A stretch of 33,681 nt of DNA from Candidatus Hecatellales archaeon B24 (lineage in GTDB: Archaea; Thermoproteota; Bathyarchaeia; Hecatellales; Hecatellaceae), in contig LUCC01000003.1 in the NCBI GenBank assembly GCA_001593855.1, positions 1-33,681 of the forward strand, in the 5' to 3' direction. The stretch's first letter is position 1. Each line of letters starts with the position of its first letter. This document shows positions 29,139-32,210 of the stretch, piece by piece. The position numbers and the translations under genes were made by a program. Below the pieces are notes generated by a model that worked only from the letters and a program-made list of their open reading frames with translations, was not told the DNA's origin and searched no databases.

Positions 29139-29453
29139 CTATTCTAGGAGAGGTTCAGCTTTGCCCTTTTTCTCGTTCCAGACCATGGGGTTTTCAGGTT
29201 TAGCAGCGTCCTCCTTCTCTCCTTCAATCATAAGGTAGCGTCGGCCGTCCTTTAGGGGGATTATGAAGAACTCTCTCCTCCGGCCCTCCTCGTCTACAAG
29301 GATTATTTTACGTTTCTTATCCGCCAGCTTCAAGGTTTTAGGGTCGAGATACTTGCACATCAGAAATTTTCCTCGGCTGTCCAAGGCCCTGACCTCAAGC
29401 TTTCCAGCCTTGCTCCGGGTTAAAACTTCAGGAGGAAACTCCAATTCAGCCAC
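29139..29453 (-). CDS. Conserved-looking hypothetical protein, 104 aa
   Basis: Open frame immediately upstream of and co-directional with UDG4. Balanced charged composition, no recognised motif. Confidence 0.65.
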   Translation of the reverse strand: MAELEFPPEVLTRSKAGKLEVRALDSRGKFLMCKYLDPKTLKLADKKRKIILVDEEGRRREFFIIPLKDGRRYLMIEGEKEDAAKPENPMVWNEKKGKAEPLLE

Positions 29454-29527: not shown

Positions 29528-30595
29528 ATGGAAGGAACGTTGAACTCTTACGAGCGGGTTATGCTGGCACTGGAAGGTAAGTCTTTCCAGGCAGATAGAG
29601 CACCATATGTAAACCCTACCATAACAGCCACCTTAGAGTTTATGGAGGCTACGGGAGCCCGGTGGCCCGAAGCCCACCGCAACCCCGAGCTGATGGCTGA
29701 GCTGGCTTCAGCTGGCCCGAGGCTGGCAGGCTTAGACATGCTTACGGTTCCCTTCGACTTCATGGTGGAGGCTGAGGTTTTAGGAGCGCCCATAGACTTT
29801 ATGGAGGAGCCTGCCAGCAGGGGTGTAATGGTTTGGCCTATGGTGAAAACCTTCACGGTTAAGGAGCCCTCAGACGTTAAGCCCCCCCGAAACGTGGGGG
29901 AAGCGGGAAGAATACCGGTAATCACCAGGGCTATCAGGCTTTTAAAGAGCAAGTTTGAAGGGTTAACCCCTGTGAACGTGGTGATGAACGCTCCCTTCAC
30001 CTGCGTAGGCTACTACCTTGTGAACCCCGCTGAATTCATGAAGGCACTCATCACCGACCCTGAAAAAATCGGGGAAATCCTAGAGGCTTCCGTTGAAGCC
30101 TTCATCGGAATAGCTCAAGCCTACGAGGAGGCTGGAGCAGACGTAATCACCTTTCATGACATGGGGGCCAGCACCGCGGTGATAGCCCCCCAACACTTTA
30201 AAGCCTTCGCGGCACCCCACCTGAAAAGCCTTGCCAAAGCCGTGAAATGCAAGACCATTCTAAGCATCTGCGGTCCAAACCTGAAAATTATCAGGGAGAT
30301 GGTGGAGGTGGGAGCCGACGCCATAGCCTTAGACGAACGCACTTCCATCCTAGAAGCCAGAAAGCTTGCGGACGAGACTAAACGTGGATATCCTATAGCG
30401 GGCAACATCTCTCCCAGACTTCTAGCAGCCGGAAGCCTTGAGGAAATTTCAAATGCTGTCAGGAAAGCCATAAGCGAAGGCGTAGACCTAGTAGCTCCAG
30501 GATGCGACCTTCTCCTTCAAACTCCAACCCGGAACTTGAAGGCTGCTGGGGAAGCCGTGGAGAAATATGGCGGGAGAAGCCCTCCCTTCAGATGA
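29528..30595 (+). CDS. Uroporphyrinogen decarboxylase/MtaA-MtbA-like corrinoid methyltransferase family protein
   Basis: 355 aa; YERVMLALEGK, ADVITFHDMGAS, LISP-type ending, GNISPRLLAAGSLEEI, LVAPGCDLLLQTPTRNLKA. Confidence 0.85.
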   Translation: MEGTLNSYERVMLALEGKSFQADRAPYVNPTITATLEFMEATGARWPEAHRNPELMAELASAGPRLAGLDMLTVPFDFMVEAEVLGAPIDFMEEPASRGVMVWPMVKTFTVKEPSDVKPPRNVGEAGRIPVITRAIRLLKSKFEGLTPVNVVMNAPFTCVGYYLVNPAEFMKALITDPEKIGEILEASVEAFIGIAQAYEEAGADVITFHDMGASTAVIAPQHFKAFAAPHLKSLAKAVKCKTILSICGPNLKIIREMVEVGADAIALDERTSILEARKLADETKRGYPIAGNISPRLLAAGSLEEISNAVRKAISEGVDLVAPGCDLLLQTPTRNLKAAGEAVEKYGGRSPPFR

Positions 30596-30612: not shown

Positions 30613-31485
30613 TTACGCCGTGGAAACCGAGGTTAAGCCTGTGGAAAGCCTTGCCAAAGCTTCAGCCAGCCCTTCCTTTGAATACTTAAGGTGGACGGCA
30701 ATCTCTTTTTTAGGCCTAACGTAGAAGCCTCTCCTGCACTTTTCAACCCTGCTGAGGGCTGATAGGGTTTCTAAGACCGGGGTTTCAAGCTTCTCTAGGT
30801 AGATGCCCAGGCCTGGGTAAGGGCAGCCATCGCAGTCGTAGTTGCAGAATTCGCATAGGCTGTAGGTGGCTTCCAGAAGCTTCAAGGCTTTCTCCTCGGA
30901 GCTTTCTTCCTCAACCTTTGAGGTTTTAATCTCTACCCTTCCTGTTTTGCTTTTAAGCGTGAAAAGCCTTCTTTCCAGCCTTCTAACGGCGGCCTCCACT
31001 TCAGCCCTGTTTCTAGCCCCTGTCAGCACGGCTTTCCCGTTGGAGAAGAGCAGGGCTACCGTTTTAGGGTTTTCCATCTGGTAGATTAAGCCTGGAAACT
31101 GTTCAGGCTCGTAGATGGTTCCCGTCAGGGTTTTAGCAGCCTTCTCAAGGTTTATGGTACGCTTGAAGTTTACGAGAGCTACCACGTTCTGGATTTTCAC
31201 TCTAGGCCTCTCTTTGAACTTGACTCCTTTCTCTCTAAGGCTTAAAACAAGCTTTTTAACGGCTGTTCGGGCCCCGTACTCAGAGCTTGAACCCGTGCAA
31301 ATCATTTTCCCCGTGCTGAAGATCAGGTTGGCTGTTTTAGGCCTTCCAAGCTTTACAACGACGCCTGGAAAACGGCTTCTAGGCCCTGAAACCGTTGGAA
31401 GAGCCTTCTTTACGGCTGAAAGGGAAAGCCTCTGCCTGAAATCCACGGAGGCTACCACATTGCAGATTTTTATTTCAGCCTTCAT
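30613..31485 (-). CDS. tbp: TATA-box-binding protein with C-terminal cysteine-cluster extension
   Basis: 290 aa; two TBP repeats (FPGVVVKLGRPKTANLIFSTGKMICTGSSS and FPGLIYQMENPKTVALLFSNGKAVLTGARN), then about 110 aa with CEFCNYDCDGCPYPG. Confidence 0.93.
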   Translation of the reverse strand: MKAEIKICNVVASVDFRQRLSLSAVKKALPTVSGPRSRFPGVVVKLGRPKTANLIFSTGKMICTGSSSEYGARTAVKKLVLSLREKGVKFKERPRVKIQNVVALVNFKRTINLEKAAKTLTGTIYEPEQFPGLIYQMENPKTVALLFSNGKAVLTGARNRAEVEAAVRRLERRLFTLKSKTGRVEIKTSKVEEESSEEKALKLLEATYSLCEFCNYDCDGCPYPGLGIYLEKLETPVLETLSALSRVEKCRRGFYVRPKKEIAVHLKYSKEGLAEALARLSTGLTSVSTA

Positions 31486-31713
31486 CAGACTGCACCTGAG
31501 GGCTTAGAGAGGGCCCAACCCGCTTCCGCCAACCTATTCTTTACCCTTCATCCCCCATAAGCTTATCTTTAACAGAGGCTTCAACGGCGGTTTACGAAAA
31601 AATAATATATTAACGTAACGCGAATAATATCTTTGAGAAGATTGTCGCAAAAGGTTAATTAAATGTCAGCCTCTTCAGGCTTCCCCGTTCCCCCTGGGAG
31701 GTAAAAACGGGTA

Positions 31714-32210
31714 ATGGCCAAGAAAAAACTTGAATTCGAGATTGACTTGTCTGAAGGTAGAGTTACCCTGGGGGTGAAGACTGTATCGTTCTTAACCTTG
31801 AAGATTTTAAAGCTATTCTCCTCGGGATGTGGGAGGTCTTCGGCTCAGGAGCCTACACCATCCTGCTTACAGCCGGGAAACATCTGGGGAAAAGGCTGGC
31901 TGTAAGCCTTAAAGAGAAAGGGTTTGAAAGTGATAGGGCTCTGGTAGAAGCCTTCGCAAGCTTCGTAACAGAGGCAGGATGGGGTAGAATAGTGGCTGAA
32001 AAAATGACTGAAAAGGGTTTAACCATTAAAGTTTACAATTTCGCCTTGTACAGGGAAGAAATAAGCGGGAGAAGAGACTGCGCCCTAATCAAGGGGATAA
32101 TTTCAGGCTTCTTTTCAGCCCTTTGGAAGAAGGTTTCCTGCTCCGAAATCCGGTGTGTACTGGACGGAGACGAATGCTGCGAGTTTAAAGTTGAGAGAGG
32201 AAACGTCTGA
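31714..32210 (+). pseudogene. V4R-domain protein split by an apparent -1 nt frameshift
   Basis: Frame of 31714: MAKKKLEFEIDLSEGRVTLG. Frame of 31827, read upstream: GGEDCIVLNLEDFKAILLGMWEVFGSGAYTILLTAGKHLGKRL...CVLDGDECCEFKVERGNV. The frames join at G5 (31770-31774); a sixth G would restore one ORF. Confidence 0.65.

Follow-up and report, generated by a model that had tools for sequence, protein, structure and literature searches.

Archaeal TATA-binding proteins (TBPs) normally consist of the saddle alone, with regulation believed to go through separate factors. Cys-based redox control of archaeal transcription is found in the MsvR/V4R-domain regulators of methanogens. The TFE-beta/hRPC39 [4Fe-4S] domain is an example of a C-terminal module with four Cys carried by a basal initiation factor. 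TFE-beta is an archaeal basal factor, and its C-terminal [4Fe-4S] domain is required for assembly (PMC4495717).

The window, a stretch of 33,681 nucleotides (contig LUCC01000003.1, positions 1 to 33,681), belongs to the genome of Candidatus Hecatellales archaeon B24 (G000). Hecatellales, an order within the Bathyarchaeia, have been recovered from geothermal environments, and remnants of methanogenesis have been described in them (PMC9635834). On its reverse strand the window encodes an extended TBP paralogue of 290 aa, here called TBPx. With archaeal TBP (PF00352; NF001592) it shares both saddle repeats, the four DNA-kinking Phe and the TFB-contacting Glu pair. In contrast to archaeal TBP, it has about 100 extra C-terminal residues with four invariant Cys, and a basic N-terminal stirrup, and it scored under the NCBIfam equivalog cut-off (189 vs 270 bits). 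Its C-terminal module is placed as in TFE-beta; however, the TFE-beta ligands are C92-C95-C101-C112, spaced x2, x5, x10 (PMC4495717), whereas those of TBPx are spaced x2, x3, x2. Because the spacing differs, the comparison is one of possible working and not of family membership. The domain also lacks the PF05158 match of TFE-beta. When TFE-beta loss was considered, this profile matched only Sulfolobus among the control genomes. TBPx has no V4R domain either, and its link to MsvR is one of neighbourhood only, absent in two orthologous loci (G003 and G005).

The extended TBP and its ordinary paralogue

The TBPx gene, its parts and a conserved block upstream of it were located as follows:

30613–31485 (−): TBPx gene, open frame; orthologues in G001, G002, G003 and G005
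31234–31476 (−): TBP repeat 1, N-terminal lobe, with a basic stirrup replacing the acidic one (PF00352, E 2.4e-21; 36 ordinary TBPs compared)
30961–31200 (−): TBP repeat 2, C-terminal lobe, with the TFB-contact stirrup YEPEQFPGLIY kept (PF00352, E 3.5e-27)
30901–30957 (−): variable linker, residues 177–195 (low pLDDT at 178–192; dN/dS 0.30 for G000 vs G002)
30616–30900 (−): C-terminal domain, residues 196–290, without known family (AlphaFold2; profile searches; five genomes only)
30823–30855 (−): four-Cys cluster C211-x2-C214-x3-C218-x2-C221, probable metal site; invariant in 5/5 orthologues
31548–31570 (−): 23-bp conserved block AAAGATAAGCTTATGGGGGATGA with the palindromic core ATAAGCTTAT, possible promoter/operator

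The ORF was single and unbroken, with an ATG start. The whole protein matched PF00352 with an E-value of 7.8e-49 in two stretches, the saddle covering about residues 1–176, and the best solved-structure match for the saddle was 1mp9 (Foldseek, E 1.7e-19). Beyond about residue 176 the Pfam profile search gave no credible family match. The original prediction of an uninterrupted 290-aa ORF with both canonical TBP repeats was thus borne out, and the four Cys map exactly where it had placed them. Lack of conservation of the clustered Cys in extended homologues would have refuted it; 4/4 were invariant across five genomes. The proposed survey of related genomes recovered the same fusion in these five, and not the early stops that an assembly error would imply.

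An ordinary TBP of 187 aa was encoded on contig C4 of the same genome, so TBPx is a divergent paralogue and not the cell's sole TBP. It is a genuine TBP, but in place of the earlier designation as a general transcription factor we therefore speak of an alternative TBP. The pair was also present in G002, G003 and G005, and in G001 (85% complete) the extended TBP was the only one found. Many genomes of the class Bathyarchaeia carry more than one or two TBP genes; G079 and G250 had 17 PF00352 repeats apiece.

In a maximum-likelihood tree of 42 TBPs, the five extended proteins formed one clade, with a support of 100/100; its stem was long, at 1.41 changes per column. Within it the branching order was G005, G003, G001, then G000 with G002, and the ordinary TBPs of the family grouped separately. 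The five genomes comprise four of the genus and one of another genus in the family. QMXU01000031.1, a Candidatus Hecatellales MAG, is one of the records with the fusion. In all five genomes argS was near TBPx. The extension was not found in three further genomes of the family, G004 (98% complete), G006 and G007; downstream of argS, G004 had a different ORF. As read from the sequences, the simplest history would be a single duplication and fusion predating the split of the two genera, followed by vertical descent.

Elsewhere the C-terminal domain was not found, with no credible score in 257 genomes of the class and 398 sampled from the whole phylum, nor in the viral contigs, phages and plasmids searched. 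Among the weak matches, those in G024, G188 and G086 look like ferredoxin-type and hydrogenase-small-subunit-type proteins.

Other TBP paralogues of the class also carry an extra domain, as TBPx does, but their extensions are unrelated to that of TBPx and of separate origin. One genome only (G012, L040:6684-7535) had a TBP with a ~100-aa C-terminal extension containing several Cys (CIYVDGLWCNNKLCDGPPC). In G044 and G056 (L092, L093), TBP paralogues with a TTG start had an in-frame N-terminal helix-turn-helix-like domain, which matched Pfam HVO_A0114 just under the cut-off (E 2.6e-6). TBPs of G043 and G147 (L094, L100) had an insertion of about 30 aa directly before the N-terminal stirrup.

Saddle and C-terminal domain

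A comparison with 36 ordinary TBPs from the class showed that the TBPx orthologues retain N9, V11, S13, F39, F56, T64, N100, V102, F130, F147, V153 and T155. The four DNA-kinking Phe (F39, F56, F130, F147), as well as E126 and E128, were invariant in all five extended proteins. The two Glu align with the TFB/TFIIB-contacting positions C.L3.2 and C.L3.4, human E284 and E286 (PMC7221094). The N-terminal stirrup had turned from acidic to basic, with SGPRSR, SSQKSR, LTRRNR or FRRKKH in place of EYRPEQ, and K67, invariant in ordinary TBPs, was replaced by Ser. The other main substitutions were E8 to Cys, S104 to Leu, G109 to Arg/Lys, D112 to Asn/Ser, L152 to Ala and E160 to Lys/Arg. The N-terminal lobe is a surface where regulation can act (PMC7221094). 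We infer that TBPx probably still recruits TFB and bends DNA, and that the N-terminal face was rebuilt, perhaps to suit the new domain.

The alignment of the five orthologues gave for residues 196–290 the motif YSLC-x-FC-x3-C-x2-CPYP-x-LG-x3-EK, invariant over the limited divergence of five sequences from one family. The linker before it (about residues 177–195) varied in both sequence and charge. Described originally as acidic, it was basic in G003 (RKGRRRRVKASGRG), and the second half of the stretch so described, EEKALKLLEA, belongs to the C-terminal domain as its first helix. Cys250, likewise suggested as part of the site, was not conserved, being His in G001. Given the local Cys content, the pattern C-x2-C-x3-C-x2-C has a chance expectation of about 7e-6 per 100 aa, and in about 177,000 aa of ORFs from the fetched loci only TBPx and its orthologues had it.

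Selection was estimated as dN/dS by NG86 among the closest three genomes (G000, G001 and G002). Between G000 and G002 the values were 0.03 for the saddle, 0.02 for residues 205–235, 0.10 for 236–285 and 0.30 for the linker; against G001 the Cys core had 0.05–0.08 and residues 236–285 had 0.23. Purifying selection on the Cys core is strong, dN/dS being 0.02–0.08 across the three.

Modelled alone by AlphaFold2, the C-terminal domain was compact (mean pLDDT 78, pTM 0.73), with a predicted order of helix, Cys loop, short strand, helix, beta hairpin and two helices. In the full-length model the Cys loop had low confidence (pLDDT <50). The domain gave no credible match, and none above a curated cut-off, in Pfam, NCBIfam, PHROGs and PDB sequences. 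ARF7EP_C, CIAPIN1 and Molybdop_Fe4S4, all under the cut-off, were rejected as its identity, and no Fe-S or Zn family recognized the four-Cys motif. Foldseek against the PDB and viral models found nothing significant for the domain, the best PDB match being aRDF (E 0.043, TM-score 0.41). Scattered weak matches to a winged-helix fold were not relied on. The Rfam search gave no match. The fusion is a real, conserved and new domain architecture of a known factor.

Genomic neighbourhood

Divergent from TBPx in G000, G001 and G002 was a gene with a V4R domain, related to the C-terminal half of MsvR, a redox regulator; its NCBIfam match (E 3.8e-9) scored far below the cut-off of the MsvR model. In the window this gene, at 31714–32210 (+), appears frameshifted into two overlapping frames (31714–31905 and 31827–32210); in G002 and G001 it is intact. 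The frameshift looks like a sequencing error or recent decay. The 23-bp block lies 65–85 nt upstream of TBPx and had 0 to 1 mismatch among the same three genomes, with diverged flanks. A search of six genomes that allowed up to 3 mismatches found no other copy, and a regulon via this block was rejected for want of a second copy. A functional tie between TBPx and the V4R gene was likewise not retained, since they are paired in only 3/5 genomes and V4R proteins occur commonly across the class. As both the V4R gene and the block are missing from G003 and G005, neither is an essential component.

A gene of the methylcobalamin:CoM methyltransferase family (29528–30595, NF004889 above cut-off) was convergent with TBPx in G000 and G002, and a related one was near TBPx in G003. 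At 29139–29453 (−), adjoining a uracil-DNA glycosylase gene, we found a conserved 104-aa protein of no known family, also present in G001 and G002. A dedicated extra TFB for TBPx was not supported, two TFBs being present also in G004, which is without TBPx.

Proposed working of TBPx

We propose, with a probability of about 0.6, that TBPx is an alternative TBP recruiting TFB, and that its metal-binding domain (probably Fe-S, possibly Zn) is a regulatory or partner-docking module. The intact saddle would bind and bend promoter DNA, and TFB would be recruited via the normal C-terminal stirrup, judging by the retained contact residues. The N-terminal stirrup, which sits on the lobe through which other TBPs are regulated, has been remodelled. 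The C-terminal domain may coordinate a metal centre by its four clustered Cys, most likely [4Fe-4S], else one Zn, and in this way act in regulation or docking. TBPx would serve a subset of promoters or conditions, with the standard TBP doing the housekeeping. We lean toward [4Fe-4S] because the four Cys lie within 11 residues and a Pro follows the last one. Zn knuckles are usually more widely spaced, and [4Fe-4S] sites more typically have a Pro directly following the last Cys. TFE-beta offers a precedent for an Fe-S domain on an archaeal basal factor. For the domain, metal binding together with a lineage-specific interface is the best inference. Points against the proposal are the low confidence of the Cys loop in the full-length model, the lack of an Fe-S or Zn family that recognizes the motif, the limited divergence over which the Cys are invariant, and that G004, of the same family, lives without TBPx.

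The same four Cys would suffice for one purely structural Zn, in a domain that docks constitutively to a lineage-specific partner or TATA-flanking DNA and senses nothing. Zn modules are frequent on basal factors, and conservation runs beyond the Cys (PYP-x-LG-x3-EK), as on an interaction surface. However, Zn ribbons have knuckles that lie apart, unlike the two CxxC pairs here with only three residues between them, and the Pro fits [4Fe-4S] sites better; we hold this possible and somewhat doubtful. It is unlikely that TBPx is a sensor in the full sense, its fused Fe-S domain switching promoter choice by redox or iron, possibly with the MsvR-like V4R protein and the palindromic element.

The long stem branch and the loss of otherwise invariant residues (K67, Y34, P36, D112, E160) could also mark a decoy or repressor, which would restrain the standard TBP by occupying TATA boxes or tying up TFB with no productive initiation. 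The TFB-contact stirrup and the DNA-facing residues are, however, fully kept, a joint conservation that a simple decoy does not need, which makes this role quite improbable. An assembly error, a read-through or a decaying tail has virtually no chance of explaining the extension, even though the window's genome is fragmented (72% complete) and the adjoining V4R gene does appear frameshifted. The fusion with identical Cys in five genomes, including G005 in 3 contigs, rules out an assembly error or missed stop, and the dN/dS well below 1 over the whole extension rules out a pseudogene.

Two other TBPs of the class also have fused domains, which suggests that Bathyarchaeia have added domains to their extra TBPs on more than one occasion. 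With a probable metal-binding domain joined to one of two TBPs in a conserved fusion, signals would feed directly into promoter recognition, and TBPx would offer a clean test of the division of labour among TBP paralogues. By means of the fused domain, a basic promoter-recognition factor of these heat-loving archaea could answer to a cellular signal. Should the metal centre be Fe-S and control promoter binding, the significance of TBPx would rise sharply.
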